From positions 1 through 64,000 of the forward strand of contig NZ_JAKGRW010000011.1 in assembly GCF_021555175.1 (NCBI RefSeq): a stretch of DNA of 64,000 nucleotides, in the 5' to 3' direction. This DNA comes from Nocardioides alcanivorans. GTDB taxonomy: Bacteria; Actinomycetota; Actinomycetes; Propionibacteriales; Nocardioidaceae. The notes under the pieces are model-generated. The model was not told the origin of the DNA and did not search any database. It saw nothing but the letters and a program-made list of their open reading frames with translations. The position numbers and the translations under genes are program-made. This document shows positions 9,478-56,094 of this stretch, piece after piece (positions within the stretch are counted from its first letter, which is position 1; every line of letters starts with the position of its first letter).

Positions 9478-9506
9478 TCCCGACCCGTGAGGAACTGAAC
9501 GCACCC

Positions 9507-26214: not shown

Positions 26215-29096
<2,882 letters not shown>

Positions 29097-29100
<4 letters not shown>

Positions 29101-29837
29101 GCCACCTCACCTCCGAGCATCAGAGCCTGGATCCGACTGGGGTCGGCACTGAGCACCGCCGCCGATTCCTCGGCGATGATCGCGCCCTTCTCCATGACGT
29201 AGGCGCGGTGCACCAGCGAGAGCGCAACGTTGACCGACTGCTCCACCACCAGCACCGAGGTACCGCGCTCGTTGAGCCGACGGACGAGCTCGCACAGGCC
29301 ACCCACCACGACGGGTGCGAGGCCGAGGGAGAACTCGTCGATGACGAGCAGCTTGGGATCGTTGACGACAGCCTTGGCGAGGGCGAGCATCTGACGTTCA
29401 CCGCCGGAGAGCGTCGACGCCGGTTGGTTCCGGCGCGCATTGAGCCGTGGAAAGATCGCCAGCGCGGCCTCGACTGCTTCGCGGACCCACTTCTGGTCCT
29501 TCGTCGCATAGCCGTGCATACGGAGGTTGTCGACCACGGTGAGCGAGCCGAACGAGGCCTGACCGATCACCTGACCGAGCCCCTTCTCCACCCGCTTGCG
29601 AGGCGACCAGTACGTGCTGTCCCACCCGCCGATGTGCACGGACCCCGAGTCGGGCTTGAGCAGTCCACCGATCACCCGGAGCGTCGTCGACTTGCCCACC
29701 CCGTTGGGGCCGAGCAGGGCCACCATCTCGCCCTGCTCGACGTACAGGCTCGTGCCGAAGAGGACCTGCACCGGTCCGTAGGAGGCGTTGACATCGGCCA
29801 GGCTCAGCGCCGGCGCTTCACTTCGAGAAAGAGACAT
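29097..29837 (-). CDS. LivF-like ABC transporter ATPase
   Basis: 246 residues. Walker A GPNGVGKST, signature LSGGERQMLA, Walker B KLLVIDEFSLGLAP (DEFS where LivF usually has DEPS), D-loop and H-region VLVVEQSVNVAL. The partner ATPase is fused to the permeases downstream. The ATG at 29837 lies inside the last codons of the binding-protein gene (20-base overlap). Confidence 0.9.
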
Positions 29838-31181
29838 CTTCGCCCTCGTAGACGAAGCAGGCGCAGCCTTCGTCGAAGCGCATCATCCGGTAGGCACCCG
29901 CGGCCGCACGGCTACCGCCACCGAGGCCGTTGCCGAAGCCGGAGGCCGTCTCGAAGGCGGCACCGTCCCGGTCCACGGCCGCGCTCCACGTCGTCGCGTT
30001 GAACGTGCCGTCGCCGACCCCGTCGCTGCCGAGCTTCAACAGTCGCGCCGCGTCGCAATAGGGAATCGCGAACCGCGCGTTCTCCCGGGTCTCGAAGGTG
30101 ATGCCGCCTTCGGCGTAGATGTCGAGGCACTCCTGCTCGGCGCCCGGCTGGGGAAGCTCAGCTGCTCGTCCGCCAGGTCCTGCGCCGGCTGGAACCCGAT
30201 GCCGACCATGCCGACCATCGTCTCGGCCGGGACCGTCTTGGGGTTGTTGACGAAGAACGACGGGTTGTCGAACGTCGAGATGCCGTACGTCGCATCGAGG
30301 CCCTTCGACCCGGCGATCGTCGCGAAGATCGAGGCCAGCCGGGAACCACCGAGGAAGAACACCCGGTCGATTCCCTTGCTGGCGAACGTGATCGCCGCCT
30401 GCTCCTCGCCCATGAAGATGGTCCCCATGTCGGTGGTGTCGACCCACCCGACCTCGACATCGAGGCCGAGTTCCTCGAGCTGCTTGACGGCCTTGCCCTC
30501 GACGGCTCGACGATTGACCGGGTTGTCGGCCGCCACGATCGCGACCTGGTCACGTCCGTCGAAGAATCCCTGCGCGTCCATCGCTTCGATGTAGGAGCGG
30601 GTGAAGGCGTCGTACTCGGGGTAGCTGGCGGTCCACAGGTGGGGGTCGAGCTCCGCGTAGAGCTTGGCGTCGCTCGCGACCAGCGTTGCGTCGAGCACCA
30701 AGGTGTTGCGCTCGTCGTAGCACGGACGGGCATTGGACTGGAACTGTCCGGTCAGCACCACGGCGAAGGCCTGGTCGTCCTGACTGACCTGGTTGCAGAG
30801 CTGCTCCTCCGCGGCCGGCGAGTCCACCTCGGCGTTGTACCAGCGGAAGACCGCGTCGAGTTCGCGTCCACCGAGCCCGCCGTTGTCGTTGACCCACTTC
30901 TCCAGGGCCTCGACCTGCTTCTCCGGATCGCCGATCGACGCGGTGTTGAACCCCGTGGCGTCCTGGACCCCACTCAGGTCCACACCCACGAAGACGACCT
31001 TCACGCTGTCGTCGGTGACGCCCGGACCCGCGACCGTGGGGTCGGCGCTGCCACCGCCGCCGGGCATCAGCGCGCCGCAGCCCGCCAGTGCCAGCGCGGC
31101 GACCGACCCTGCCGCGGCAGTGCGCAACCAAAGGGCGTTGTCGCGACGCCGTGTGGCGTTGCGCTCCGCTGCCTGTGCCAT
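29818..31181 (-). CDS. ABC substrate-binding lipoprotein (LivJ/PBP1 type), frame-broken
   Basis: About 454 residues; the ATG at 31181 (MAQAAERN) has GAGAGGGAG just upstream and is preferred to the start at 31202. Lipobox ALALAGC after a basic segment, then the periplasmic type-1 fold (VKVVFVGVDLSG, VEALEKWVNDNGGLGGREL, RVFFLGGSRLASI). One C is missing near 30153; restored, the end continues FPQPGAEQECLDIYAEGG to VSFSK at 29818. First gene of the importer operon, driven by regulon motif 5. Confidence 0.85.
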
Positions 31182-31219
31182 GTGCTCCCTCTCGTCCGAC
31201 ACCGTGGACGGACCAAACT

Positions 31220-33303: not shown

Positions 33304-33963
33304 GTGAGGAGTGCATCAGGTCACATCATTTCGGCAGTGGCCCGCGTCGTGGCGGAGCTGCTGCTGACCGTCGGCCTGCTCTTCGCCGCCCTCGCCTTCT
33401 ACCTCCTGGTCTGGACCAATGTGCAGACGCAGGCGGCCCAACGCGACCTGCTCCAGGAGTTCCGGTCCCAGCAGGAGAAGAGTCCCGGGCGCAGCACCGA
33501 ACCGAGCACCGGCGAGGGCGTCAACGTGCTGCACATCCCTCGCCTGGGCAAGGACTGGGAGTGGGTCGTGGTCGAGGGCGTCGACCTGGACACGCTCAAC
33601 GACGGCCCCGGACACTTCCCCGACACCGCCCTCCCGGGCGAGAAGGGCAACTTCGCGGTCGCCGGTCACCGGGCCACGCACGGCGAACCGTTCGCGCACC
33701 TGGACACGCTCGTCGAGGGCGACAAGATCCATGTCGAGGCTCCGGACGGCTGGTACACCTACCAGGTGACCTGGAGCCAGATCATCGCCCCGACCAGCAC
33801 CGAGGTGCTGGCTCCGTCCCCTGGACAACCCGGCAAGAAGCCCAAGGTCCAGTCGATGACGCTCATCACCTGTCATCCCCGCTGGGGCTCGACCGAGCGC
33901 CTGGTCGTCGGGGCCCAGCTGGTCGAGCACCGCGCCCTCGGCGCTGGCGCTCCCCGGACCTGA
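33304..33963 (+). CDS. Class E sortase
   Basis: 219 residues with an N-terminal membrane helix (about 15-36). Catalytic residues are H122 (AGHRATHG), C190 (TLITC) and R199 (STERLVV). Class E sortases in high-GC Gram-positives attach LAxTG/LPxTG proteins to peptidoglycan. The two LPKTG proteins in the importer operon are the obvious clients. GTG start directly after regulon motif 6. Confidence 0.9.
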   Translation: MRSASGHIISAVARVVAELLLTVGLLFAALAFYLLVWTNVQTQAAQRDLLQEFRSQQEKSPGRSTEPSTGEGVNVLHIPRLGKDWEWVVVEGVDLDTLNDGPGHFPDTALPGEKGNFAVAGHRATHGEPFAHLDTLVEGDKIHVEAPDGWYTYQVTWSQIIAPTSTEVLAPSPGQPGKKPKVQSMTLITCHPRWGSTERLVVGAQLVEHRALGAGAPRT

Positions 33964-34271: not shown

Positions 34272-34834
34272 ATGAGACCACTTCGATACTCGATCAACGT
34301 CACGCTCGACGGCTGCTGCCATCACGAAGCAGGCCTCCCCCGGACGAGGAGTCGATGCGCCACTGGACCGCCGAGATGGCGCGGGCCGATGCCCTGCTGT
34401 TCGGCCGGGTGACCTACGAGATGATGGAGTCGGCGTGGCGCCGGCCGGACACGGGCACGTGGCCCGAGTGGATGGATGAGTGGGAGATCCCGTTCGCCGA
34501 GACCATCGACCGGGCAAGGAAGTACGTCGTGTCGAGCACCTTGCGCGGGGTCGACTGGAATGCCGAGCTGGTACGTGGCGACTTGGGTCAAGCGGTTCAG
34601 CGGCTCAAGCAGGAGCCGGGCGGTGGCCTGTGGGCGGGCGGGGTCACGCTTCCCCTGGCGTTGGCGGACCTCGGGCTGATCGACGAGTACGAGTTCGTCG
34701 TGCAGCCGGTCCTTGCCGGACACGGGCCGACCCTGCTCGCCGGTCTGCGCGAGCGGGTCCAGCTCGAGCTCGTGGATCGCCAGGAGTTCCGGTCGGGAGC
34801 AGTCGTCCTGCGGTACCGGCCCACGGGTCAGTGA
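34272..34834 (+). CDS. Dihydrofolate-reductase-family (RibD C-terminal-like) protein, frame-broken
   Basis: About 187 residues from ATG 34272 (GAGGGAGCAACGAG upstream): MRPLRYSINVTLDG, then one C missing near 34335, then RADALLFGRVTYEMME, KYVVSSTL, GGGLWAGGVTLPLALADLGLIDE and PVLAGHGPTLLAG. These are standard phrases of the actinobacterial dihydrofolate reductase family, NADPH-binding reductases of mostly unknown substrate. It has no regulon motif and converges on the maleate-isomerase gene with a few bases of overlap, so it may be a bystander. Confidence 0.8.
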
Positions 34835-35577
34835 TCGCGCAGGAGACTGCCGTAGCCGTGGAGCTTGTCGTCGATCCCGTTGTCACGCAGCGCCATCCAC
34901 CAGGTGGCGGCGTTGATGGCGATGACGGGCTTGTCGAGCCAGCGCTCGGCCTCATCGGCGAGCTCGGTCATGCACAGGTTGGTGCCGCACTGCACGATCG
35001 CGTCCACGTCCGGGTCGTTGACGGCCAGCATCGACTCGCGCAACGTCTGCTCCGAGACGTGGGCGATCGACACGGCGCTGGGGCAGCTGAGGCCCTTGAC
35101 CTCCCCCACGTCGAACCCGAGTTCGGTGAAGAACTTGCGCACGTTGGCATCACCGATCGGCGTGTAGGGAGTGACGACACCGATCTTCCTCACCCCGAAG
35201 AGCTTGAGGGCACGCTCGCACGCCTCCGCCCCGGTCGCCACTCCGAGGCCACCGGAGAGATCCTGGATCTGCTTCACGAACTCGCGGTTGCCCTCGACGC
35301 CGTCCCAGAAGGTCTCGGCACTCATGCCCATGACCATGTAGTCGGGTTCCATGGTCATGATGCCCTCGACGCAGTCGGCCATCGAGGCGCGAATCTGCTC
35401 GAGGAGCGCCTCCATGCCCTCGTCATCACCGATGCGACCATCACGGATCAGGATCCGCCCGTAGTGGGAGGTCACCCCGGGCACCCGCATCATGTCGAAC
35501 TCGGGCTGCACGATCGTGTTGGTGCTCGGCGCGATGACGCCGAACTTGCGGCGCCAACCCAGTCGGTCCACGCTCAC
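34828..35577 (-). CDS. Maleate cis-trans isomerase / arylmalonate decarboxylase-family protein
   Basis: 249 residues. GVIAPSTNTIVQPEFDMM at the N-terminus is the signature of the maleate isomerase/AMDase group of the Asp/Glu racemase superfamily. The second cysteine region reads VQCGTNLCMTELADEAE (C in GTNLC); in the first half the usual cysteine position reads MVMGMSAETFW, so one of the pair seems replaced by Met/Ser. GTG start overlaps the membrane-protein stop. Last gene of the Rieske/RCCR-like operon. Isomerising a substituted maleate would follow naturally from imide hydrolysis (inference). Confidence 0.8.
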   Translation of the reverse strand: MSVDRLGWRRKFGVIAPSTNTIVQPEFDMMRVPGVTSHYGRILIRDGRIGDDEGMEALLEQIRASMADCVEGIMTMEPDYMVMGMSAETFWDGVEGNREFVKQIQDLSGGLGVATGAEACERALKLFGVRKIGVVTPYTPIGDANVRKFFTELGFDVGEVKGLSCPSAVSIAHVSEQTLRESMLAVNDPDVDAIVQCGTNLCMTELADEAERWLDKPVIAINAATWWMALRDNGIDDKLHGYGSLLRDH

Positions 35578-36299
35578 GCGGGCACTCCTGACTGCTCGTC
35601 GGCGGAGCTCTCGTCCGCCTTGTCGGACAGGTGGTCACGCAGCCACAGTGCTCCCAGCAGGAAGCAGAGCTGGACCGCGGAGTTGGTCAGCTGTTCGGCC
35701 CACTGCAACTCCAGCGACTGGTTCGGCTGAGCGGCCAGCGGCGGCAGGATGTTGGTGCCGAGCGTGTAGATCACGAACAGGTAGCCGACCGACTTCTTGC
35801 CCGCCCGGAAGGCGATGACCGCCAAGCTGATGGCCATCACGCAGGCCGCGACCGCAGCGGCGATCAGCAGGGGCCAGTTCTTGTACTCACCGGCAGACCA
35901 GCTCATCCAGCCGGCACCCAGTCCGGCAGCGAGCGGGAAGAGGACGAACGGCCACGGGCCGACCTCGCGCCCCTTCGCCAGACTCAACGACGCCCACGCC
36001 ACGGCTGAGAATCCGAACGCCAGGCACGGGAAGAGCAGGTTCTCCAGCACCGGGTAGTCCCAGCAGTTGCTCGCCACCAGGATCTTCCACAGCGCCTTGC
36101 ACAACCCGCCCAGGGTGACCAGCAGGCCACCCACCAACGCCACCGAGTAGGCCCGGGGCACTCGGAGCCGGACCGCACCGGCCAGGATCCAGAACGCGGC
36201 TCCGGCAAGCAGGACCGGGACGAAGTCCTCCACCGCCAACGGAACGTTGTATTCGGTGCAGACGTCCACACCGCGAGCGAGCACCACCTGTGTCGACAC
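35574..36299 (-). CDS. Integral membrane protein, six to seven helices
   Basis: 241 residues from the GTG at 36299 (VSTQVVLARGVDVCTEYNV), five bases after the SDR stop. Hydrophobic helices include FVPVLLAGAAFWILAGAVRL, SVALVGGLLVTLGGLCKALW, ENLLFPCLAFGFSAVAWASL, WPLLIAAAVAACVMAISLAV and VGYLFVIYTLGTNILPPLAA. A conserved-looking NQSLELQWAEQLTN loop precedes the last helix. I do not recognise a family; it may move or sense the pathway substrate. Confidence 0.65.
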   Translation of the reverse strand: MSTQVVLARGVDVCTEYNVPLAVEDFVPVLLAGAAFWILAGAVRLRVPRAYSVALVGGLLVTLGGLCKALWKILVASNCWDYPVLENLLFPCLAFGFSAVAWASLSLAKGREVGPWPFVLFPLAAGLGAGWMSWSAGEYKNWPLLIAAAVAACVMAISLAVIAFRAGKKSVGYLFVIYTLGTNILPPLAAQPNQSLELQWAEQLTNSAVQLCFLLGALWLRDHLSDKADESSADEQSGVPA

Positions 36300-36304
36300 G
36301 ATTC

Positions 36305-37120
36305 TCAGGCCTCCCCGGTGGCGAAGATGTCGCGCTTGCGGAAGCCTGCCGACATGAAGCGACCCATCGCCTTCGGCTTGGTCAACCACGCGACCCGGGT
36401 GCCGTGCTTGGTGGCGCCGAGCATCTGGTCGACGAGCCACGGCGTCACGGTCTCCACGCGGTCGCCCAAGATGTTGAACACGCGCCTGACCTTCTCGAAG
36501 CCCTCCGGGTCACCCGCGTAGTCACCGACCAACAGGTCGGTCGCCACGATGCCCGGCGACAGGAAACCCACCTTCACGGGCGTTCCCTTGGCGTCCTTCA
36601 CGAGCGCCTCGGTGAGATAGTGCACGGCGCGCTTCGAGGCGCCGTACGTCGCCATGCCCGGCTGGTGCTCACCACGCGAGCCGAAGCCCTCCATGTTCCA
36701 GATCCAGCCGCCGCCGGCCTGCTCCGCCATGCCCGCCTGAGCGATGGCCGAGCCGTTGAACGCACCGATCAGATTGGTCTGCACCACGGCGTCCACGGTT
36801 GCCGGCAGTTGGGCGACCAGCGGACCACGAGGCGCGGACAACCCAGCGTTGTTGATCCACAGGTCGACACGTCCGAAGTGCGCAGACACCGCGTCCCAGA
36901 GCGCCTGCACCGCAGCGCGGTCGGACACGTCGGTGACGAGGCCGAGCACCCGGCCCGGGTCGGCCAGGCCCGCACGCAGGACGGTGACTCCCTCGTCGAT
37001 CGACGCCTGCGAACGAGCGCAGACCGCCACCTGGTGCCCCCGAGCCAGCAGCTCGCGCGACAGGCCGAGGCCGATCCCGCGCGTGCCGCCGGTGACGACG
37101 ACGACCCGTGCGGCACTCAC
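36305..37120 (-). CDS. SDR-family oxidoreductase
   Basis: 271 residues. GGTRGIGLGLSREL cofactor loop, CARSQ after strand 2, NNAGLS, a non-standard NMEGFGS where the catalytic Ser lies, and YGASKRA (YxxxK). The C-terminal half (VFNILGDRVETVTPWLVDQML, WLTKPKAMGRFM, RKRDIF) pairs with the SDR at 15.3-16.1 kb. Overlaps the next upstream gene by four bases. Plant chlorophyll b reductase (NYC1/NOL) is also an SDR with a similar general layout, but I cannot claim that activity. Confidence 0.8.
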   Translation of the reverse strand: MSAARVVVVTGGTRGIGLGLSRELLARGHQVAVCARSQASIDEGVTVLRAGLADPGRVLGLVTDVSDRAAVQALWDAVSAHFGRVDLWINNAGLSAPRGPLVAQLPATVDAVVQTNLIGAFNGSAIAQAGMAEQAGGGWIWNMEGFGSRGEHQPGMATYGASKRAVHYLTEALVKDAKGTPVKVGFLSPGIVATDLLVGDYAGDPEGFEKVRRVFNILGDRVETVTPWLVDQMLGATKHGTRVAWLTKPKAMGRFMSAGFRKRDIFATGEA

Positions 37121-38071
37121 CGCGGCTCCCAGGCCAACGACCCGTGCACGAAGTGCGTGGTGGTCTCGCCGTGCAACAGCTGCCAGACGATGGCGAGCTC
37201 ACGGGTCTCGGGATCGATCAGGAACTCGCGACCGCGGATCTTCTCGACACCGGTCTTGTCGGCGCCGACGAGGTGCTGGACCGTGAAGAGGGCTCGACCG
37301 TAGGACGTGGCGTTGCCGAAGACCTCAGGGCCCTCGAACATCGTGCGGGCGCCGTCGCGGTGGCGGTCGAACGTGTAGGCCCGCTCGAGGTCGCCACTCC
37401 AGGTGATCGTGTGCCGGGCCGAACGCAGCGACGTGGGCTCGTGCTCGATGCGCACCCGCACCTCCCCTCGGTCGTCTGATCGGCGCCGTTGAGGAAGAGG
37501 GTGCCGGTCCAGGCACCCGCCTGCTTGGTCGGGAGCACCTGGGGACGCGGGCCCCGCTCCACCTCGAGCTCGCGCCAGTCGTCGACCAACTGCTGCGTGG
37601 CCGGGTTGGTCTCCCGGTCGGTGGTGCGCTTGTAGACACCGTTGAAGACGGCGCAGACGGCCCAGCCGTCGTGCAGCACGGACGAGTAGACCTGCGTCTC
37701 CCCGTCTGCAAGCACCTGGTTCCAGGTGCGCAGGTCGGCCTGCCAGCCCGGCGAGTAGTAGTTGGCCTCGACGAAGAGGCCGTAGGGCTGCCCGGTGCCG
37801 TAGAAGTCGGGGCCGGTGTAGACCCGGTTCTCGTCGGAGTCGACGACCCCGAAGTCGAACTGCGCACCGAGCTCGAAGCGGTTGCGCAGCGGACCGGCTC
37901 CGGAGAGCTTGGAGTCCATCCAGTAGCGGGCGCCTTCGGCGGTCACCTCGCTCGCGCGGGCGATGTGCTCGAACCCGACGTGGTTGCCCTGGGCGTCGAA
38001 GAGGCCCGGGATCCCGTGCCACTCCCCTCGATCCGCTTCTGCCACTCGCTGGTCTCGACAGCCTCACTCAC
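37117..38071 (-). CDS. Beta-rich protein, possible calycin-like barrel, frame-broken
   Basis: About 318 residues. GTG at 38071 overlaps the preceding stop; VSEAVETSEWQKRIEG runs into EWHGIPGLFDAQGNHVG after one G is restored near 38018, and a second break lies near 37475 (TTEGEVRVRIEHEP). Two similar halves with alternating strands and Trp/Tyr-rich turns (YTGPDFYGTGQPYG, ANYYSPGWQADLRTW, HTITWSGDLERAYTF). The EWxG start and strand rhythm recall DUF3598/calycin proteins such as bilin-lyase relatives, but this is a weak visual resemblance. Position between RCCR-like and SDR genes suggests substrate handling. Confidence 0.45.
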
Positions 38072-38808
38072 CGGACGACCTCGTTGGTGACGAGTTGGAG
38101 GCGCACGCTCTCGGCGACGTCCTCGCCGAGCAGTCGGCTGATCTGCGCCCACACCTTGTCGACGTCGGCGCTGAAGAGCAGGCTCCGGTTGCGCGCGTCG
38201 CGCACGGCGAGGTCGGTGTCGGCCAGGTCGTCGCGTACGTCGGCCGGCACGTCGCCCTCGACCAGCGAGAACCAGTGCTCGAGGTAGGCTTCGACCGGAC
38301 CGTCGAGCTGCCCAAAGGCCTCTTCACTGGCGCGGTTGGCGAGCATCCACGACGACATGACGGTGAGCTGGCGCGGATCGAGCTGCGCCCTGGAGAGTCC
38401 CTCCATCTCGTGCACCTGGTGGAACGTCTCCGTCAACGGGGTGTGCGCCCAGTCGTTGTAGACCATGTGGGTGCCCGCGTCAGCTCGCTGGACCAGGTCA
38501 AGGTGGAACGCGTAGTAGTCACCCGAGTGGACCGAGTCCAAGGTGAAGTGCGGCACCGGCGATCCGTCGGGCATGAACGCGAAGACCATGTGGCTGTCGA
38601 GTCCGATCTGGGGCACCACGATGCCGACGTAGACCGCCTTGGCGATCCGCTCGCCCCGGAAGATCCGCACGGAGCCGACCGGGTCTGGCCCCATCACGGA
38701 GACCAGCGTCTGGAAGGGACCGCCGTCGGCTCCCTCCACCTCGGTGAGCCCGGTCCGGGCCACGATCTTCTCGACGGTGCTGACACACAGCTTCTCGGGC
38801 AGGCTCAC
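38068..38808 (-). CDS. RCCR / bilin-reductase-fold candidate protein 2
   Basis: 246 residues, GTG overlapping the Rieske stop. Layout parallels the other two RCCR-like proteins: a central block VPHFTLDSVHSGDYYAFHLDLV, then a helical block TVMSSWMLANRASEEAFGQL, VEAYLEHWFSLVEG, and an ending RNRSLLFSADVDKVWAQ..LLGEDVAESVRLQL (compare RRNIAE..RFFGPDMTQQLVRAL in the copy at 41.1 kb). Similarity is fainter than for the other copies and I call it by structure-like pattern only. Directly coupled to the Rieske oxygenase, so it may process its product. Confidence 0.45.
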   Translation of the reverse strand: MSLPEKLCVSTVEKIVARTGLTEVEGADGGPFQTLVSVMGPDPVGSVRIFRGERIAKAVYVGIVVPQIGLDSHMVFAFMPDGSPVPHFTLDSVHSGDYYAFHLDLVQRADAGTHMVYNDWAHTPLTETFHQVHEMEGLSRAQLDPRQLTVMSSWMLANRASEEAFGQLDGPVEAYLEHWFSLVEGDVPADVRDDLADTDLAVRDARNRSLLFSADVDKVWAQISRLLGEDVAESVRLQLVTNEVVR

Positions 38809-40094
38809 GCCTTGGCCTCCTCGTTCTCACTCTTCACGGCAGATTCGGTGGAGCCTTCCGGCTCGTCGCCGGCCCCACCGGCCGGTACGTCGGCACTCGG
38901 CTCCGGGTCGGGCATCACCAGGCGGCGCTCGACGCGGGGCTTCACGTCGGGCGAACCGGCGAGGATCTCGCGGCTACGCACCTCCTTGAAGTTCCACGCG
39001 CTGGCGAGTTCGGGCACTTCCTTGCGGATCGGCGACGGGATGACGCGGGCCTCGACCCGCGCTGGCCCCTCGCCGACGATCGTGTTGCCCTCGACGCTCC
39101 AGCCCTGGTCGATGAGCTCCTGGCGACGACGGCGATAGAGCACTGCGTTGTAGTCGCTCTTCACGTGCAGCTCCGACGAGAGGTCGAACGGCAGCAGCTC
39201 CGGTCGGACCGCGTCGACGATGCCTTGGTCCTCGCGCAACACCTTGAAGATGCGGCGCTTCGCGTCGAGATCGGCCCACGCGCCCTTGAAGAAGCCGCGC
39301 AGGGCGACGAACTTGACCAGCGTGGTCTCTTCGTCGATCGGGATGTTGGTGTCGAAGATCTTCATCGGCCCCATCGGGGTGTTGACCTCGATGAGCACCA
39401 TGTTGGGCAGGAACCAGGTGGTCGACACCTCCACCGGGGGCCGGTTGGCGAGGTCCTGCTTGTTGGGGTTGATGAGCCCCCACAGTCCCTTGGACCGCGG
39501 CGGGTGCAGGGTCACCGAGGCCTTGCAGTGCCACGGCGACTCCTCGGTCCGGAACTCCGGCACCTCGGGCTTCTCGCGGTTGCCGAAGACGCCTCCGTGC
39601 ACGAACGGGGTGTGTGCGACGTCGACACCGTTCTCGAGGATCCGCTCGTAGTTGGACTTCCACAGGAACGAGCCGGTGACGGCGCGGTAGTTCACGGTGT
39701 CGTCGATCGCGGACCAGTCGGGGATCGGCGGCCGCTCCTCCTCGGGGAGGTCACCCATGTAGACCCACACGAAGGAGTAGCGCTCAACGACCGGGTAGGA
39801 GTCGACGCGCGCCTTGCGCGGGATGCCTCGGTCGGGGTGGGCGGGGATCTTCACGACCTCGCCACCCGGGTTGTACTGCCAGCCGTGGTAGGGACACACG
39901 ATGCAGTCGTCCTTCACCTCACCGCCCGACAGCGCGGCACCGCGGTGCACGCACAGGTCGGAGAGGGCGACGATCGAGCCGTCGCTGCCCTTGCGATAGA
40001 GCACCAGCTGCTGGCCCAGGATCTTGATCTTCTTGGGCTTCCCTGCGACGACGTCCTTGCTGAACTCGACGGCGTACCAGAAGTTCTTGAACAT
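38805..40094 (-). CDS. Rieske-type oxygenase alpha subunit (VanA / pheophorbide-a-oxygenase-like class)
   Basis: 429 residues. [2Fe-2S] ligands C48, H50, C67, H70 (CVHRG and CPYHGW) and mononuclear iron site GVDVAHTPFVH with D158, H161 and H166. No beta subunit, reductase or ferredoxin gene is next to it. FWYAVEFSKDV..GQQLVLYR at the N-terminus is the style of single-component Rieske monooxygenases (vanillate demethylase, PAO, choline monooxygenase). In plants PAO opens the chlorin ring and its product goes to RCCR; here the oxygenase is flanked by two RCCR-like genes. The extended acidic tail after VMPDPEPSADV is unusual. Confidence 0.88.
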   Translation of the reverse strand: MFKNFWYAVEFSKDVVAGKPKKIKILGQQLVLYRKGSDGSIVALSDLCVHRGAALSGGEVKDDCIVCPYHGWQYNPGGEVVKIPAHPDRGIPRKARVDSYPVVERYSFVWVYMGDLPEEERPPIPDWSAIDDTVNYRAVTGSFLWKSNYERILENGVDVAHTPFVHGGVFGNREKPEVPEFRTEESPWHCKASVTLHPPRSKGLWGLINPNKQDLANRPPVEVSTTWFLPNMVLIEVNTPMGPMKIFDTNIPIDEETTLVKFVALRGFFKGAWADLDAKRRIFKVLREDQGIVDAVRPELLPFDLSSELHVKSDYNAVLYRRRRQELIDQGWSVEGNTIVGEGPARVEARVIPSPIRKEVPELASAWNFKEVRSREILAGSPDVKPRVERRLVMPDPEPSADVPAGGAGDEPEGSTESAVKSENEEAKA

Positions 40095-40106
40095 GAGGGG
40101 CTCCTC

Positions 40107-41104
40107 CTAGCGTCGACGGGCGTCGGCGATTTCAGGTTGGTGATGGCCCAGCCATCGGTCTCGGGCCGCCAACGCCGAGGGGTCATCGCCAAGCGTGGCA
40201 GCAAAGAAGGTGACGAGGAGGTCGAACAGCACCTCTCGCAGGTGATCCTGGTCGGCTGCCGGCGGAGCCTCGAGGAAGCCGCGGGCCGAGGTCGGGTCTT
40301 CGGGGGCTGCCGGCAGCATGTGGCCGGCGTCGGCGAGTTCCACCAACCAGGCTTCGGTGGTCTCGGGCAGCGCCTCGCTCCAGGTGCGCTCGATCGGGTC
40401 GTGTCCCGGCGCGCCGGCCTCCTCGCCGTAGCGGATCGCACTGGCGGCCACGATTCCGTCAGCAGTGCCACCCACCAGCAGCACCGGCACCTCGACCGGT
40501 GCCGGCAGCAACGTCCCGGGGGCGTGCCCCAGTTGCTGCGACGCCATCGTGTGGGAACCGTAGGTCGCCACTGCCCGGACCTGCGGAAACCACTGCGGGC
40601 GTGCTGACTGCAGCGCCACGGTGCCACCGGCCGAGTGCCCGAAGAGACCGATGTTGCCGAGGTCGAGCAGCCCGGCCAACGGGCCGGCCTCCTGCGCCTG
40701 GGCGACCGCGTCGAGCACGGCAGCCAGGGCGGGGGTGGTCGGCTTGCTCCCGTAGGTGTCGGGCCCGACCGCGCTCAGGTCGACCCCGGGCGTCAGGCCG
40801 ACCTGGCCCGGGAACAGCTCGGCCACCCAGTCGAAGGTGACCGCGACGATCCCGGCGCGCGCCAGTGCCACGGCAAGGTCGAGATAGCCGACGGACGCGA
40901 CGTTGATGCCCGGCAGCACGATCACCACGGGGTACGGCGCTCCGGCAGGATCAGCGGCCAGCATGCCGCTCATCCGCTCGATGTCGTTGCTCGCCTCGAG
41001 CGCCGGGTGGCGCATCGTGAGGTGCACGGTGTCGAGGGAGCCGCGGCGCCGGGCACCCGGACAGCCGTCCGGTGGGTCCGGACCAGCGCGGGCTCAGCAG
41101 GCAT
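40107..41104 (-). CDS. Alpha/beta hydrolase, chlorophyllase-like, N-terminal frameshift
   Basis: About 332 residues. The ATG at 41104 (MPAEPALVRTHRTAVRVPG) has GAGGAAG overlapping the previous stop; one base is missing near 41050 before RRRGSLDTVHLTMRHPAL. PYPVVIVLPGINVASVGYLD (oxyanion loop), FDWVAELFPGQVGLTPGVDL, LFGHSAGGTVALQSA (nucleophile), LLVGGTADGIVAAS (Asp) and LADAGHMLPAAP (His). The layout matches dienelactone-hydrolase/chlorophyllase-type enzymes; plant chlorophyllase has GHSRGG. Removing phytol or another ester before ring opening by the adjacent Rieske enzyme is an attractive role (inference). Confidence 0.72.
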
Positions 41105-41112
41105 CGTCTTCC

Positions 41113-41922
41113 TCAGCGCTCGTGTGGGCGGGGCAGGGTGCGGTCGCCACCCCAGAGCGCGCGCACCAGTTGCTGGGTCATGTCGGGTCCGAAGAACCGC
41201 TCACCCATCTCGTTGGCCGGGTCGCGCTCGGCGATGTTGCGTCGGGTGGCCTCGTCACTCGCTGCCAGGGCGGCCTGCTCCTCGAGTGGCACCCGCTCGG
41301 CCTCGTCGACCCACTGCAGCCACCGGTCGAGATGGCGCTCGGCCACCTCGGTGACCAGCTTGGTGGTGCGCTCGTCGCCCGGTGCCATGAAGCACATCGC
41401 GGTCGGCGACAAGCTGGCGCGGACGAAGGCACTGCGACTGACGAACGGCTGCAGGAAGTCGTTCTCGGCGGCGATCTGCTCCCACTCGTCGTTGAGTGGG
41501 CCGTAGTAGCGGTCGAAGGAGTCGGTGTCGACCAGGATGTTGGAGCGTGGCACCGAGTCCAGGAACATCCAACCCTGCGGAAAGGCGCCGAGCGCCATCC
41601 CGAAGTGCGGGACCTTGACCTGCGGCCCGAGCCAGATCGTCAGGTGCACGTTGACGAAGCCGAGGGCCGCGTTCTCCATGTGCGAGTGGATCATCCAGTC
41701 GATCTCGGGACCGGCATAACCTCGCACGCTGCCGGAGGGACCACCCTCCGAGCTGAACGACTCGAGCACCTCGGTCGAGGGGTCGCGCTCCAGGTCGAAA
41801 CGATCGGCGACCTTGGTCGCCATCCGGTCGACCAGCGCCTTCCAGTCGGCAAGGAGTGCGGTGACGTCGGTCGGACCTGCCTCGTCGAAGTACTCCTGCA
41901 CCGACTTCAGGTTCTGGCTCAT
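41113..41922 (-). CDS. Red chlorophyll catabolite reductase (RCCR)-like protein 3
   Basis: 269 residues; ATG 41922 (MSQNLKSVQEYFDEAG) is chosen over upstream GTG/ATG because of GAGG at a good distance. Agreement with plant RCCR motifs as I remember them is strong: EIDWMIHSHMENA (plant IDFVIGSWIH), VPHFGMALG, SVPRSNILVDTDSFDRYYG (plant LPHRKDLVLNPDYLKEYY), FVSRSAFVRASLSPTAM (plant VSPSLFVRSAFSPTAS), ERHLDRWLQWVDEAE, and RRNIAERDPANEMGERFFG (plant RRKSIEDD..RMFGEE). First gene of the eight-gene operon under regulon motif 7. RCCR uses reduced ferredoxin on an open tetrapyrrole. Confidence 0.72.
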   Translation of the reverse strand: MSQNLKSVQEYFDEAGPTDVTALLADWKALVDRMATKVADRFDLERDPSTEVLESFSSEGGPSGSVRGYAGPEIDWMIHSHMENAALGFVNVHLTIWLGPQVKVPHFGMALGAFPQGWMFLDSVPRSNILVDTDSFDRYYGPLNDEWEQIAAENDFLQPFVSRSAFVRASLSPTAMCFMAPGDERTTKLVTEVAERHLDRWLQWVDEAERVPLEEQAALAASDEATRRNIAERDPANEMGERFFGPDMTQQLVRALWGGDRTLPRPHER

Positions 41923-41960
41923 GCGGTTCCTCATCCCTCCATCAAGAGCATGTGACACAG

Positions 41961-41969
41961 ATAATATAT
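41961..41969 (+). promoter_or_regulatory. AT-rich regulon motif, site 7
   Basis: Core ATAATATAT (one mismatch) within CAGATAATATATTCTATCTA (41958-41977). On the minus strand TAGAAT/TATTAT gives the -10 for the RCCR-Rieske operon. Nothing else is visible in the 41980-42030 gap. Confidence 0.72.
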
Positions 41970-42030
41970 TCTATCTACTCCGGAAGTGCGAGGGAATCAC
42001 CCAACCTTCGAGCGGTGTCTCGCGATCCGG

Positions 42031-43463
42031 TCATGGCGTCGGATAGGCGCTGGCTGCCAGCCCGGCGGCGCCCGCCCGAAAGGCGCCGGGAGCGTGGATG
42101 ACGCAGGGTTGCACATATTCGAGGAGACCCTCGTCGCCGTACTCCCGTCCCCAGCCCGATCGCTTCACTCCCCCGAAGGGGGCATGCAGCGCCATGCCGG
42201 TGCGGTTGTGGGTGTTGACGAAGGTGAAGCCGGCCTCCAGCCGGGCCGCCACCTCGAAGGCGCGGTCCTCGTCGGCGGACCACACCGAGGCGCCCAACCC
42301 CAGCTCGCCGGCGTTCGCACGCGCCACGACCTCGTCGAGCGACCCGTAGCCGAGCACCGGCAGGGTCGGGCCGAACTGCTCGGTGACCACGATCGGGTCG
42401 TCGTCCGCAGCGCCGAGCACGAGGGTGGGGCGGACGAAGTGTCCGCGGGCCAGGTCTCCGACCACCGTGCCCAGCTCGCGTACGTCGGCTCCTGCGGCCC
42501 GCGCTCCGTCGACGAGCTCGCGGATGCGGTCGGCCGAGGCAGCGCTGACCACGGGCCCCATCGTGACCCCCGGGGTGAGCGGGTCGCCGACGTGCAGCAC
42601 CCGCTGCGCCGCTGCCTCCAGCCCGGTCACGACCTCCCCAGTCGAGCGGCGGGCACATAGAGACGCTTGATCGCCATGCAGACCTGACCGCTGGTCGCGA
42701 AGGCCGCCATCAGCATCCGCTCGTAGGCGGCGTCGTCGAGATCGGCGTCGTCGAGCACCACGGCAGGATCGTTGCCACCGAGCTCGAGCACGCTCGGCGT
42801 CAGCGACCTGCCAGCGAGCGACGCGATGGCACGACCCGCCGACTCCCCGCCGGTGAACGCCACCCGAGCCACCTGCTCGTGGGTGACCAGTGCGGTGGCG
42901 GTCGCGGCCTCGCCGTGCACGACCTGCACGAGCCCTGCGGGCAGTGCGCCGGCGATCACGTCGAGCATCCGCGCAACTCCGAAGGGTGCCAGCGGGGAGG
43001 GCTTGACCACGATCGCGTTGCCGGCGACCAACGCCGGTGCCACCTTGAGGGTCGTGAGGATCAGCGGGGCATTCCAGGGCGTGATGGCGCCAACCACTCC
43101 GAAGGGACGGTGACGGACGGAGAGGCGACCGCGTTGCTCGTCGCTGGCCCGCTCCCGGAGCAGCTCCTCACCACGGCCGGCGTAGAAACGCAGGACGGTG
43201 GCGGCGAACCCGGCCTCCCCGCGGGCGTCGCCGAGCACCTTCCCGGTCTCTCGAGCGGTGAGCTCGGCAATCGAGTCGAGTTCCGGGTCGAGCAGGTCGA
43301 CGGCAGCCCGCACCAGGCGGGTCCGTTCGGCGACCGGTGTCGCCGCCCACAGCAGCTGGGCCTCCGCCGCGGTCCTGACCGCGACGTCGACTGCGTCCGA
43401 GTCGGAGACCTCGACCGTGCCGACCACCTCGTCGGTGCGCGCCGGGTTCTCGCGGGCGATCAC
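42031..43463 (-). CDS. Aldehyde dehydrogenase, frame-broken
   Basis: About 477 residues. GTG at 43463 overlaps the stop of the preceding monooxygenase. GVVGAITPWNAPLILTTLKV, active-site Glu in LELGGNDPAVV, catalytic Cys in TSGQVCMAIKRLYV, C-terminal PFGGVKRSGWGREYG. One G is missing in the run near 42637 (ARLGEVVTGLEAA). NAD(P)-dependent oxidation of an aldehyde to an acid. Last gene of the flavin-monooxygenase operon; a paralogue sits at 45.6-47.1 kb. Confidence 0.88.
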
Positions 43464-44680
43464 GCCCCAGCTCCTCCGAGCACGGCAACGGGCCTGCCGC
43501 TGCGCAGGGAGTTGATCATCGACGTGTTGAGCAGGTGTGCTCGCATCCGCTCCCGGTCGGCGGCCAGCGCGCGCAGTTCGTCGTGGTAGGCCCTCTGGGC
43601 ATCCGGGTCGGTCTGGCGCAATCGTTCCCAGTTGTCGTGGGTGATGGTCTTGACGTAGGACAACGCCACCTGACGCCGTCCCTCGCACGCAGCGTCGAGG
43701 TCGTCGAGGTGGCCGTTGCCGTCGAGGAGCGCGAGCAGCGCCCGCGCCTCGATGACCGCGTCGTGGACGCCGCTGTTCATGCCCATCCCGCCGAGCGGGT
43801 TGTTGATGTGCGCGGCGTCGCCCATGAGCACCAGCCGGCCCTTGCGGAAGGTGTCGGCGACACGCTGGTGCACGCGGTAGAGCGTGGTGTGCAACACCTC
43901 CCAGTCACGGCCGAGGTCGGCCACCCCGGCGAGCCGTACCTGGATCCGGGTCGGGTCGATCTCGACCTCGTCGGCCGTGTCCTGGTCGGTCGGGAAGAGC
44001 ACCCGCCAGTGCTCCGGGGTCCGCAGCACCACCAGCCACTCGCTCGGGTCGAAGACGTAGTTGACCGCCGCGATCCCGGGCAGGATGCTCTCGAGGTCCT
44101 CGGTGGTGGAGGCCACCAGGAAGCGCTCCGGATAGGTCATCCCCTCGAAGGTGAAGCCGGCGCTCTGGCGCACCTGGGAATTCGAGCCGTCGGCGCCGAT
44201 GACCCAGTCTGCCGTGAAGGTGTCGCCGACCTCGGTCGTCACGCTCGCAGAGGTGTCGGTGGTCGTCGCCTGCACCACCCGCTGCCCGAAGCGCACGGTG
44301 ACCTGGGGCAACGCCTGCAGCGCCTCGAGCAGGATCGGCGTGAGCTTGCTCTGCTCGCACTGCACCCGGAAGGGGAAGCGGGTGTCCTCCGCCAGGATCC
44401 CCAGATCGAGGTCGGCGATGGGGCCGGTCTGCCGGTCCCGGTACTGGAAGCCCGTCGACACGATGCCGCGCGCCATCAGCGCATCGAGCACGCCGAGGTC
44501 GTCGAGCATCTCCAGCGACGGCGGGTGGAAGGTCGAGGCCCGCGACTCGGTCGCCAGTGCGTCTCCGGCTTCGAGCACGGTGACCCGGACCCCGCCCCGG
44601 GCCAGCACGAGTGCAGCCGTCAGTCCCACCGCACCGGCTCCTGCCACGATCACCTCGGTGGCGTTGCGCTGCTGGCTCAT
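43460..44680 (-). CDS. FAD-dependent class A aromatic monooxygenase (PHBH/UbiH family)
   Basis: 406 residues. FAD motif VAGAGAVGLTAALVLARGG, VIGADGSNSQVRQ (DG motif) and LMGDAAHINNPLGGMGMNSG (GD motif) are intact. Such enzymes hydroxylate phenolic or other electron-rich rings using NAD(P)H. ATGA overlap with the upstream lyase-family gene. In this operon it would add a hydroxyl to a ring piece such as a pyrrole or phenol intermediate (inference). Confidence 0.87.
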   Translation of the reverse strand: MSQQRNATEVIVAGAGAVGLTAALVLARGGVRVTVLEAGDALATESRASTFHPPSLEMLDDLGVLDALMARGIVSTGFQYRDRQTGPIADLDLGILAEDTRFPFRVQCEQSKLTPILLEALQALPQVTVRFGQRVVQATTTDTSASVTTEVGDTFTADWVIGADGSNSQVRQSAGFTFEGMTYPERFLVASTTEDLESILPGIAAVNYVFDPSEWLVVLRTPEHWRVLFPTDQDTADEVEIDPTRIQVRLAGVADLGRDWEVLHTTLYRVHQRVADTFRKGRLVLMGDAAHINNPLGGMGMNSGVHDAVIEARALLALLDGNGHLDDLDAACEGRRQVALSYVKTITHDNWERLRQTDPDAQRAYHDELRALAADRERMRAHLLNTSMINSLRSGRPVAVLGGAGA

Positions 44681-45591
44681 GAACCCTCCATCTCCCGGGC
44701 AGCCGTGGGGACGGCGTACCGCAATTCGTCTCTCAGTAGTTCGGGGAGCCCGACCAGGGCGGTCAGGTCGTCCCAGGGCATGCGCTCCACTGCTGCCGCG
44801 TGCCCGGTGCCGACGATCGCGGTCATGGTGCGTCGCACCGCGGCGGCCGCAGCCAACACCGCGGAGACCGGATGGATCACCAGCCGTACGCCGGCACGCG
44901 CCAGCTGCTCGTCGCTCGGCCCGGCGTCGATCGGCCCACCGGCCTCGGACCGGTTGTAGACCTGCGGCAACGGACGTCCGTCGGCCGCCAGCGCAGAGCG
45001 GACGCTCAGCAACACGTCGAGCGTTGCCCCCTCCACGAAGACGGCGTCAGCACCTGCCTCCGCGAAGGCGCGACAGCGGTGCACCACCGCGTCGACTCCT
45101 CGCACCGACAGGGCGTCGGTGCGGGCAACGATCACCAGGCCGGTGCCGGAGTCGGCGGCGGCCCGCACCCGATTCGCAGCCTCGTCGACGTCGACGACCT
45201 CCTTGCCGCCCAGGTGACCGCAACGCTTCGGCGCGACCTGGTCCTCCAGGTGAAGGCCGGCGACACCGGCGGCTGCATAGACCTGCGTGGTGCGCCGGGC
45301 CTGCAACGCGTTGCCGTAGCCGGTGTCGGCATCGGCCAGCAACGGCACCGCGCCCAACGCCGGCACCAAGGAGCTGGCCCTGGCCGCGATGTCGGTGCCG
45401 TGCACGAAGCCGAGGTCGGGCAGGCCGAGGTCGATCGCGGAGACGGTCGCACCCGACAGGCAGGCCCCACGGGCCCCCGCCGCCACCGCCAACGCAGCCG
45501 AGACGGCGTCGTACACCCCGGGCAACCGGACCACGTCGGGGCCGGCGAGCAACTCCCGCAGTCGGACCGCGTTGGGGCTCGCGACGCTCAT
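44677..45591 (-). CDS. Isocitrate lyase / PEP mutase-family protein
   Basis: 304 residues. LPGVYDAVSAALAVAAGA, DADTGYGN (metal-binding), GLHLEDQVAPKRCGHLGGK (catalytic KRCGH loop) and VIVARTDAL are the core motifs. The KxCGH loop is that of C-C lyases such as methylisocitrate lyase rather than phosphonate enzymes. It probably cleaves a substituted malate/isocitrate-type acid. Four-base overlaps on both sides. Confidence 0.85.
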   Translation of the reverse strand: MSVASPNAVRLRELLAGPDVVRLPGVYDAVSAALAVAAGARGACLSGATVSAIDLGLPDLGFVHGTDIAARASSLVPALGAVPLLADADTGYGNALQARRTTQVYAAAGVAGLHLEDQVAPKRCGHLGGKEVVDVDEAANRVRAAADSGTGLVIVARTDALSVRGVDAVVHRCRAFAEAGADAVFVEGATLDVLLSVRSALAADGRPLPQVYNRSEAGGPIDAGPSDEQLARAGVRLVIHPVSAVLAAAAAVRRTMTAIVGTGHAAAVERMPWDDLTALVGLPELLRDELRYAVPTAAREMEGS

Positions 45592-47086
45592 CGCCCGTGC
45601 AGCGCGAAGCCGCCCTCGACCCCGACGACGCGGGTGCCGGTGAAGACGCGAATCGTCTCGACCGTGCCCTCCTCGCCCATGCCGGAGAGTCCCCAGGCAG
45701 GACGCGGGGTCATCAGGTGCAGGCTCATGATCGTCGAACCGTTGACCTTGACCTCTCCGGCACGGACTCGGCGTGCTGCAGCGAGCGCGGCGTCGGTGTC
45801 CGTGCCGACCACGTAGCCCTCGAGGCCGAAGGGGTCGCGTTGGCGAGCCGCACCGCCTCGTCGAGGTCGCCGTAGGTGTGAACCGTGGCGACGGGGCCGA
45901 AGACCTCGTGCACCGCGGACCCGCTCGGCACTGCTGAGATCAGCGTGGGTGCGAGAAAGTTTCCGCCCGCGGGCAGGTCAGTGCTGACGTGTGCCTTGCC
46001 CCCGGCGGCCAACCGCTCGTCGATCTGCTCCAGCAACCGGTCCCGGTGCCCCGCATGGACGATCGGCCCGAACTCGGTGGCCGGGTCGAGCGGGTCGCCG
46101 ACGCGCAGGTCGGCCAGTCGCTCACCGATCCGTTCGAGCACCTCGTCGGCCCGGTCGGCAGGGAGCACGAGTCGACCGAGGGCACGGCACCACTGTCCGT
46201 TGAGCGTGGTGAGCAGGTCGGCGGCGGCCCTGGCTGCCGCGTCGACGTCGGCGTCGGGCATGACGAGCAGGGGGTTGTTGCCGCCGAGCTCGAGCTGCAG
46301 TGCGGTGAAGTTGGCAGCGCAGGCGGCGGCGATGGCCCGACCCGCCTCCAGGCCTCCGGTGAAGGAGACCGCGCGGACCCGCTGGTCGTTGACCAACTGG
46401 CCACCGACCCTGGCACCACCCTGCAGCAGCTGGAAGGTTCCGGCCGGAGCGCCTTGTTCGGTCAGCACCCGCTCGACCACCTCGGCCAACGCAGTCGTCC
46501 CCCAGGCGGCGTACTCGCTGGGCTTCAGCAACGACGGGGCGCCGGCAGCCAGCGAGCTCGCGATCTTGTGGGCAGCCATGGGGGCCGGGGCGTTCCACGG
46601 GACCAGGCTCAGCGCGGGCCCGAGCGGCAGCCGGTGCACCTCGACCTCGTTGCCGTGCTCACCGACGGTCGTGTCGAGGAGTACGCCGTCGCGCAGTTGC
46701 TGCGCCGCGAGGTGGAACGCACCGGGAACGATCACGCCGACGATGCTGGTCTGGGTGACCGGCACCCCGGTGGCCATGGCCTCGAGTGCGGCGATCCGGG
46801 GCACCTCGGCGCCCAGTGCCGCGCCGATCGCGTCGAGGATCTCCGCCCGGCGCTCCGTCGGCACTGCCTGCCACGCCTCGGCGACGTGCACCCGGTGGGC
46901 AGCCGCGAGCGCCTGCTCCACCTGGTCACTGCTGCTGGCCCGGGCACGGCCCAGCGACTCCCCCGTGAACGGGTCGGCCAGGGCCAGCTCGAGCGTCTCG
47001 GCCGGGTCGCTCCAAGCGCCGTCGACCAGTTGCCGCAGACGCGGGACCTCGAGGTCGCCGCGGCCGACACCGGTCTCGTCGCTCAC
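45588..47086 (-). CDS. Aldehyde dehydrogenase, C-terminal frameshift
   Basis: About 499 residues after one C is restored near 45833 (LANATPFGLEGYVVGTDTDAA). SLVPWNAPAPMAAHKIASSL, LLKPSEYA, LELGGNNPLLV (Glu) and LLTTLNGQWCRALGRLV (catalytic Cys). Rather diverged from the paralogue at 42.0 kb, so it may take a different aldehyde. GTG start overlaps the acyl-CoA-dehydrogenase-like stop. Confidence 0.86.
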
Positions 47087-49817: not shown

Positions 49818-49862
49818 GTGGCAGTCGCCGTCCCGCAAGCCACAGACTGGGGAGCCCCATGA
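49818..49862 (+). CDS. 14-codon leader ORF coupled to gntR (or the true gntR N-terminus)
   Basis: GTG at 49818 has GGGAGG eight bases upstream and encodes MAVAVPQATDWGAP, ending in TGA that overlaps the gntR ATG (ATGA). It is either a translated leader, or, if one C is missing from the CCCC run at 49855, the real N-terminal extension of the regulator. The strong ribosome site favours real translation here. Confidence 0.45.
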   Translation: MAVAVPQATDWGAP

Positions 49863-50569
49863 GCCGACGTAGCAACGGCGCCGCCGGTGTCCGCCCGATC
49901 GCACACCAGTCGCTGGTTGACCGGGTGACCGACGAACTGCACCGCGCGATCCTCAACGGGGACCTGGCCCCGGGGTCGACGGTCTCCATCGTCGACCTGT
50001 GCGAGCGGTTCAGCATCAGCCACATCCCCGTGCGGGAGGCACTGCGCCGCCTCGAGAGTGAAGGCGTGATCAGCCTGCGGCCCGGCCGTTCCGCGCTCGT
50101 CGCCTCGGTGACGTCGGAGGAACTGCGCAACATCTATGCGTTGCGCAAGCTGATCGAGGGCGACCTCTGCCTGCGTGCGAGCAAGGCGATGACCGAGGAG
50201 CGTCTCGCCGACGCCCGCGAGGCGCTGGCCGAATACATCGAGATCGAGCGGGAGCCCGCCGCTCTGGCGGCCAAGCACCACGCCTTCCACGAAGCGATGC
50301 TGCTGGACGAGATCGGCCCCGCCGACGCCAACGTGCTGCGGCTGTTGTGGAAGGCCTCCGACCGCTACCTGCACCTGCTGATGGCCGACCTCGACCACCA
50401 GCCCGAGACGCAGAAGAGCCGCATCGACGAGCACACCGAGCTCCTCGACCTCGCCGAGGCCGGCAAGGTCGAGGAGTTCCGCGACTCCTGGGTGGCCCAC
50501 CTCGAGAGCACCGAGAAGGCCCTCCTGGCCGCACTCACCCGCCGCGAGGTCGAGACCGGATCCGCCTGA
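49859..50569 (+). CDS. GntR-family regulator, FadR/FCD subfamily; probable master regulator
   Basis: 236 residues. Winged HTH (VDRVTDELHRAILNGDLAPG, SIVDLCERFSISHIPVREALRRLESEGVISLRPGRSA, residues about 20-80) followed by an all-helical FCD ligand domain (LRKLIEGDLCLRASKAM, HHAFHEAMLL, RIDEHTELLDLAEAG) with metal/ligand-type His residues. Two AT-rich motifs flank its promoter side and ten more lie before other operons, which makes it the best candidate to bind them. FCD proteins usually release DNA on binding a pathway acid or CoA ester. No other regulator gene lies between 6.8 and 62 kb. Confidence 0.88.
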   Translation: MSRRSNGAAGVRPIAHQSLVDRVTDELHRAILNGDLAPGSTVSIVDLCERFSISHIPVREALRRLESEGVISLRPGRSALVASVTSEELRNIYALRKLIEGDLCLRASKAMTEERLADAREALAEYIEIEREPAALAAKHHAFHEAMLLDEIGPADANVLRLLWKASDRYLHLLMADLDHQPETQKSRIDEHTELLDLAEAGKVEEFRDSWVAHLESTEKALLAALTRREVETGSA

Positions 50570-56093: not shown

Positions 56094-56094
56094 G

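Follow-up and report, generated by a model that had tools for sequence, protein, structure and literature searches.

Three RCCR-type proteins in a conserved actinobacterial gene island with a possible role in linear tetrapyrrole breakdown

Which compound is handled by an actinobacterial operon in which a relative of plant red chlorophyll catabolite reductase (RCCR) lies beside a Rieske oxygenase and an alpha/beta hydrolase? The question is raised by a 64,000-nt stretch of Nocardioides alcanivorans DNA (NZ_JAKGRW010000011.1), referred to as the window, in which genes were placed by a listing of open reading frames (ORFs) and a codon-usage model. A preliminary description of this DNA had proposed an operon for chlorophyll or bilin breakdown at 34828-41979, with a further RCCR-like gene at 22567-23394; all of the claimed genes were placed at these positions, and their set and order form a unit that is conserved in relatives. 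The operon is part of an island encoding three proteins of the RCCR family or fold; this island would, somewhat probably, let the bacteria degrade a linear tetrapyrrole (bilin or chlorophyll catabolite) aerobically as a source of carbon and nitrogen. The linear tetrapyrrole is a best guess at the substrate, for which chlorophyll-derived, heme-derived and non-tetrapyrrole compounds are all possible.

The first two proteins are recognized at the family level. RCCR1 (273 aa; 41113..41934, minus strand) matches the red chlorophyll catabolite reductase family PF06405 with E 5.6e-16 and 58.9 bits, and RCCR2 (22567..23394, plus strand), located ~18 kb away on the opposite strand, matches it with E 4.6e-14 and 52.7 bits; both pass the curated cut-off of 24.9 bits. 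Profile comparison of RCCR1 with plant RCCR in the PDB gives E 5.4e-18, and databases already label RCCR1 relatives 'red chlorophyll catabolite reductase'. Judged by sequence, both proteins are homologous to plant RCCR, as first proposed. The third protein (38068..38808, minus strand; the 38068 protein) had been called bilin-reductase-like, a claim that holds for its predicted structure, which has the RCCR/bilin-reductase fold at a predicted local distance difference test score (pLDDT) of 96.5, but not for the RCCR Pfam model, since the Pfam scan returns zero families at E<=1. Profile comparison and predicted fold relate it to RCCR1 and RCCR2. None of the 120 listed members of its family has a Pfam match, and one of them (P0172) already carries the label 'red chlorophyll catabolite reductase' in its source database. 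All three proteins thus match by family or fold, and the outcome set beforehand as refuting, the absence of any such match, did not arise.

The residues Glu154 and Asp291, which we take to have catalytic roles in plant RCCR, were located by anchoring the plant numbering on F218V mutant sequences in the same alignment. Asp291 corresponds to D238 of RCCR1, invariant in 20/20 aligned rows; in the 38068 protein the nearest invariant Asp is D217, two columns off. At the Glu154 position, RCCR1 has A114 (at least 95% of 81 sequences), RCCR2 has Val and the 38068 protein has Asp91 (at least 95% of 80 sequences). The A114 and Asp91 counts and the other residue conservation counts were made with a 35% identity filter set, which removed zero sequences. 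The replacement of Glu154 argues against equivalence to the plant enzyme, and the plant reaction is therefore not to be assumed for RCCR1.

The distribution of the system was followed in an order sample of 293 genomes and an evenly spread phylum sample of 396, the window genome being counted in each. PF06405 is found in 14/293 order genomes and the 38068 family in the same 14, and the two occur together in the same 3/396 phylum genomes; the system is therefore rare but linked. Exactly two PF06405 copies are present in 14/14 positive order genomes, and one in 16/16 far genomes scanned whole, so that RCCR2 looks like an addition within the window's relatives. In the 13 other order genomes, 28/28 gene pieces from 21490-53713 recur in the same order on consistent strands, over 28-39 kb. 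For ORFs 625, 2199, 3244, 3861, 34355, 53765, 62396 and 63421, the relatives' stretches compared gave no match at E 1e-10.

A second set consists of 80 named loci, 8 near and 72 far, and is biased to close relatives because it comprises the best 80 of 228. It is also not fully independent of the 13 order genomes, since three of its loci (L069, L073 and L074) are G088, G222 and G085. The ordered run RCCR1-Rieske-38068-barrel is kept in 8/8 near and 70/72 far loci (78/80), and the full order RCCR1-hydrolase-Rieske-38068-barrel-SDR (short-chain dehydrogenase/reductase) on one strand in 8/8 near and 57/72 far loci. Fifteen of the far loci depart from the full order: 13 of the same make-up, from Acidimicrobiia or metagenome-assembled genomes (MAGs), plus L079, which is rearranged, and L125. 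In 11 of those 13 the hydrolase and SDR genes lie ~6-8 kb downstream of RCCR1; in the other two (L086 and L108) both are missing within the stretch compared. The L125 locus, from Nonomuraea corallina, has RCCR1 alone, with none of five core partners in 10 kb on either side. A nitrilase gene lies immediately upstream of RCCR1 in 65/72 far and 0/8 near loci. Carriers include the culturable genera Streptomyces, Micromonospora, Actinoplanes and Nocardioides, and the island is inherited as a unit across scattered Actinomycetota lineages.

The operon itself is a minus-strand run, with gaps of -4, 17, -4, 22, -4, 12 and 85 bp from the 34828 end to RCCR1. Its Rieske non-heme iron monooxygenase (38805..40094, minus; PF00355 E 2.9e-25, PF19112 E 7e-22) bears out the ligands noted earlier: C48, H50, C67 and H70 for the [2Fe-2S] cluster and D158, H161 and H166 for the mononuclear iron are kept in at least 95% of 80 sequences. 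Its nearest solved sequences are SxtDIOX and SxtT. The PaO domain (PF08417) gives no match to this protein at E<=1, with VanA_C in its place; the domain was not found across the window genome, and two control genomes matched, one above the cut-off. The neighbouring alpha/beta hydrolase (40107..41027, minus) had been taken for chlorophyllase-like, an assignment that is not supported: chlorophyllase PF07224 has no match at E<=1, and the best family is dienelactone hydrolase (DLH; PF01738, E 8e-5, 22.7 bits vs cut-off 21). It may be an esterase, with a GHSAGG motif (G130-H131-S132-A133-G134-G135) kept in at least 95% of 78 sequences. In Streptomyces sp. G-G2, a secreted PETase-type hydrolase (L075:18658-19644) lies beside the operon and scores 25.1 bits for chlorophyllase vs a cut-off of 26. 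In Nocardia terrae (L095), a secreted hydrolase without clear family lies beside the operon and a secreted neocarzinostatin-family protein (L095:6358-6960) near it. Secreted proteins of similar look occur in loci of Micromonospora (L091) and another Nocardia (L142).

The possible calycin barrel of the preliminary description is borne out as a double barrel. Its gene is frameshifted in the window (37117..38045, minus; ORFs 37218-38045 and 37117-37461), and the predicted structure has a DUF3598-type double-barrel fold; in a relative from locus L067 the AF2 model reaches pLDDT 88.5, with structural matches to BFA1 and 2o62. The same relative has no match to DUF3598 or any Pfam family at E<=1, and a sequence profile of the double barrel finds zero matches in the PDB. 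In two Acidimicrobiia-type loci (L083:13623-16451 and L088:13702-16343), four extra genes lie within the RCCR operon, one for a DUF3891 protein and three without Pfam match that look like more barrel proteins. Next to the barrel gene are those of the SDR (36305..37120, minus; PF00106 E 3e-37; 69/72 far loci) and of a membrane protein without family (35574..36287, minus; best Pfam match no better than E 0.4; 13/13 order genomes, 35/72 far loci).

The last gene of the operon (34828..35577, minus; PF17645 E 6e-17) encodes a very strongly conserved member of the arylmalonate-decarboxylase/maleate-isomerase superfamily, first read as maleate-isomerase-type. Maleate isomerase has two catalytic cysteines; arylmalonate decarboxylase has one, at the second position, followed by Gly. 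In 66/66 sequences, Met occupies the first maleate-isomerase Cys position (reference 2xed), C197 stands at or beside the second, and C197-G198 aligns with the CG of 3dtv. The protein therefore looks like a single-cysteine arylmalonate-type decarboxylase, and the maleate-isomerase assignment falls. A maleimide-to-fumarate ending (maleimide hydrolysis, then maleate isomerization) was dropped as a specific step because the first catalytic Cys is missing in 66/66.

The minus-strand run extends past RCCR1 to ~49669. It continues with a frameshifted aldehyde dehydrogenase (42031..43463; PF00171 on the 42627-43688 part), a FAD-dependent monooxygenase (43460..44680; PF01494 E 9e-60; 11/13 order genomes, 48/72 far loci) and a C-C lyase of the methylisocitrate-lyase/phosphoenolpyruvate-mutase family (44677..45591; PF13714 E 2.8e-37; 11/13 order genomes), prpB-like at E 6e-60, yet under the equivalog cut-off. 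A second aldehyde dehydrogenase follows (45725..47086; PF00171 E 3.5e-91), then an acyl-CoA-dehydrogenase-fold enzyme assigned by Pfam (47083..48411) that is possibly a flavin monooxygenase of HsaA/DszC-like type; its NCBIfam matches, all below cut-off, point to true dehydrogenases, with HsaA and DszC as weaker hits. The run closes with a flavin reductase that has an HMGL-like C-terminal part (48422..49669; PF01613 E 1e-45, PF00682 E 5e-12).

Beyond it lie genes for a GntR-family regulator of FCD type (49859..50569, plus; PF00392 E 6e-16; 13/13 order genomes), a frameshifted nitrilase-superfamily amidase (50576..52248, minus; PF00795 E 1.4e-32), a major facilitator superfamily transporter (52331..53713, plus; PF07690 E 3e-49; 13/13), the C-terminal part of an isochorismatase-family amidase (55439..55729, minus; PF00857 E 9.5e-20; 12/13), a family III CoA-transferase (55995..57257, minus; PF02515 E 5.5e-123; clear relative in 12/13) and an HMG-CoA-lyase-like enzyme (57358..58302, plus; PF00682 E 4e-34; 12/13, one of these partial at the stretch end). 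At 59998-61281, a DUF4437/ChrR-type cupin adjoins an AMP-ligase, and relatives of this pair, 63-65% identical, trail the operon in Nocardia transvalensis (L142).

On the other side of the operon, RCCR2 is adjoined by a small ABM-domain protein (22184..22507, minus; PF03992 E 1.3e-5; 13/13) and, 3' of it, by an NAD-dependent epimerase-family oxidoreductase (23391..24251, plus; PF01370 E 1e-16; 13/13). A secreted protein without Pfam match (24343..25701, minus) carries a sortase signal at its C-terminus (LPKTG, a hydrophobic stretch and an RRR tail), the LPxTG motif being kept in 14/14 (window and 13 relatives), and a sortase is encoded at 33337..33963 (plus; PF04203 E 4e-33; 13/13). Between the two lies an ATP-binding cassette (ABC) importer of branched-chain-amino-acid type (26215..31202, minus; PF02653, PF00005; 13/13), made up of a fused permease/ATPase (26215-29100), an ATPase (29097-29837) and a putative substrate-binding protein (30036-31202), which has no Pfam match and is assigned this role from its position.

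Two further elements are less firmly attached. A plus-strand block at 8287..13309, assigned by Pfam with NCBIfam matches below cut-off, encodes a CoA-transferase, a cyclase (PF04199), a frameshifted MmgE/PrpD protein and an allantoinase/dihydropyrimidinase-like amidohydrolase. It lies <10 kb from RCCR1 in 11/72 far loci, which are titled Acidimicrobiia or MAGs, marine ones included, and the allantoinase-like gene is near the island in 5/13 order genomes. An HpcH/RipC-like gene (21026) can be found within range in 9/13 order genomes but at variable position, and was left out of the core for that reason. Frameshifts split five window genes (barrel 37117-38045, aldehyde dehydrogenase 42031-43463, MmgE/PrpD 10351-11840, nitrilase 50576-52248 and Zn-dehydrogenase 14387-15351), which are unbroken in 13/13, 13/13, 5/5, 13/13 and 4/4 relatives, respectively. 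So many frameshifts in one region and none in relatives suggest error-prone sequencing or assembly, not pseudogene decay.

Taken together, the 8287..13309 block, the lyases, amidases, importer, sortase and LPxTG protein give surroundings that look degradative. In the pathway proposed here, the ABC importer and the surface protein anchored by sortase would capture the substrate and take it up, and the DUF3598-like double barrel would bind it. The RCCR-type proteins would then reduce methine or pyrrole double bonds in a ferredoxin-dependent manner, after which the Rieske enzyme and flavin monooxygenases may hydroxylate or cleave bridges. The alpha/beta hydrolase would cleave an ester, followed by removal of the carboxyl by the arylmalonate-decarboxylase-like enzyme; such a decarboxylation would fit a beta-keto or malonyl carboxyl, for example on chlorophyll ring E. 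Aldehyde dehydrogenases would oxidize formyl fragments, the nitrilase, allantoinase-like and isochorismatase-like hydrolases would open lactam or imide and release ammonia, and CoA transfer with C-C lyases would feed branched dicarboxylates into central metabolism. The lyases resemble methylisocitrate lyase and the itaconate-degradation enzyme RipC, all under equivalog cut-offs. Known oxidation fragments of chlorophyll and heme include maleimides, hematinic acid and mono- and dipyrroles, according to passages of PMC7318184, in whose own leaf samples the maleimides were undetected. Fragments of the maleimide, hematinic-acid and pyrrole kinds could, on this analysis, be processed by the island's amidases and lyases. 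The earlier proposal that the organism opens and consumes a tetrapyrrole is thus retained in part: the conserved oxygenase, amide-hydrolase and acid-degrading set suits it, and the identity of the substrate is our inference.

Among the alternatives, the one that survives best, although we consider it unlikely, is that the island degrades something other than a tetrapyrrole, such as a lactam, alkaloid or polyketide, with RCCR-fold proteins recruited to reduce or bind it. Several points weigh for it and against a tetrapyrrole. Catabolism in general draws on enzymes such as the Rieske protein, the flavin monooxygenases, the aldehyde dehydrogenases, the nitrilase and the CoA enzymes; the plant Glu154 is lost in both RCCR1 and RCCR2; and an RCCR-type fold is also found in the FtsHi motor complexes of plastids, two chains of which are matched by the 38068 protein. 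Nocardioides has other N-heterocycle operons, for example for the lumichrome pathway, as described in part of PMC12746152. That lumichrome/riboflavin operon was rejected as the identity of the island: according to the same part of PMC12746152 it contains a P450, a xanthine oxidase, a multi-component Rieske oxygenase and a catechol dioxygenase, of which the island showed nothing but a single Rieske oxygenase.

A restriction of the linear tetrapyrrole to heme-derived bilins is improbable. Heme oxygenase would make biliverdin, which the island would reduce and recycle for iron or nitrogen, and heme oxygenase is indeed present in 14/14 island genomes vs 94/293 order genomes. Kinship confounds this enrichment, however: the 94 include 50 genomes of the same genus and 22 of the same family. 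The heme oxygenase gene lies outside the island stretch in 14/14, the single copy of the window genome being on another contig (G000:C13:26935-27540), and biliverdin offers no obvious task for the esterase or the decarboxylase. Very improbable is the synthesis by the RCCR-type proteins of a bilin chromophore or antioxidant in the manner of pre-PcyA, beside a separate catabolic cluster: active bilin reductases occur in conserved clusters of distant heterotrophic bacteria according to passages of PMC10151467, and the phytochrome PHY domain is found in 7/14 island genomes, but PHY is not found in the window genome nor in 6 of the other 13 (counts on which bilin biosynthesis for phytochrome was rejected), globin, V4R and phycobiliprotein have no match in Pfam domain scans covering 49 of the 60 listed window genes, and linkage to the importer and degradative enzymes is tight.

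Within the linear-tetrapyrrole reading, a bolder version is advanced tentatively and is, as a whole, doubtful: bacteria would eat the linear remains of chlorophyll, with three dedicated RCCR-type reductases, a double barrel that binds the tetrapyrrole and a decarboxylase that needs no cofactor taking phyllobilins to ammonia and central metabolites, and a bacterial lineage would be a possible source of the plant RCCR step. The plant half of chlorophyll breakdown is known. Chlorophyll is made and degraded at ~10^12 kg per year, as given in part of PMC7318184. With a linked set of about eight genes in culturable genera, the microbial chlorophyll-breakdown question becomes accessible to laboratory work. 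The bacterial RCCR-type diversity also offers material on the origins of the plant enzyme and of bilin reductases, and the 38068-type proteins add a further protein family without Pfam match.

Among the papers listed by searches of the open-licence literature, with subscription papers and preprints outside the scope, no bacterial operon of this make-up and no bacterial gene cluster for linear chlorophyll products was found; heterotroph bilin reductases with globin clusters are described in passages of PMC10151467, from which the island operon is absent. The strong new results are the three RCCR-type proteins, the double barrel and an operon that is conserved in scattered actinobacterial lineages. 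Unlike the ferredoxin-dependent bilin reductases (PcyA, PebA/B/S, HY2) and pre-PcyA, the island proteins have catabolic neighbours, and the globin and V4R partners of the pre-PcyA BBAG clusters, as these appear in part of PMC10151467, are not among the window genes scanned. A bacterial homolog of the Mg-dechelatase Staygreen is reportedly known; it too is related to an enzyme with which plants break down chlorophyll, but represents another step and another protein. Staygreen had no match in the window genome, but this negative is uninformative because the control genomes gave no match either. The cyanobacterial DUF3598 protein (2o62) and plastid BFA1 (5yvf) differ from the island barrel, which has no Pfam match and is operonic with RCCR genes. 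The 34828-35577 enzyme belongs to the arylmalonate decarboxylase/maleate isomerase superfamily and has the decarboxylase-type Cys and following Gly, unlike maleate isomerase in its first position. With the plant pheophorbide a oxygenase (PAO) pathway (PAO, PPH/CLH, RCCR, MES16), the island shares the joint presence of RCCR relatives with a Rieske oxygenase and an alpha/beta hydrolase. The equivalence suggested at the outset does not hold, given VanA_C in place of PaO, no chlorophyllase match, Ala for Glu154 in RCCR1, and the extra amidases, decarboxylase and lyases; the plant step order is likewise not supported by the operon, whose gene order says nothing on reaction order. Finally, the island proteins differ from plant RCCR (PDB 2zxk, 3aga) in the Glu154 replacements (Ala, Val and Asp) and in being bacterial, operonic and present in two or three copies, known here from sequence or model, and they share with it the Pfam family of RCCR1 and RCCR2, the fold of the 38068 protein and the Asp291 position of RCCR1.

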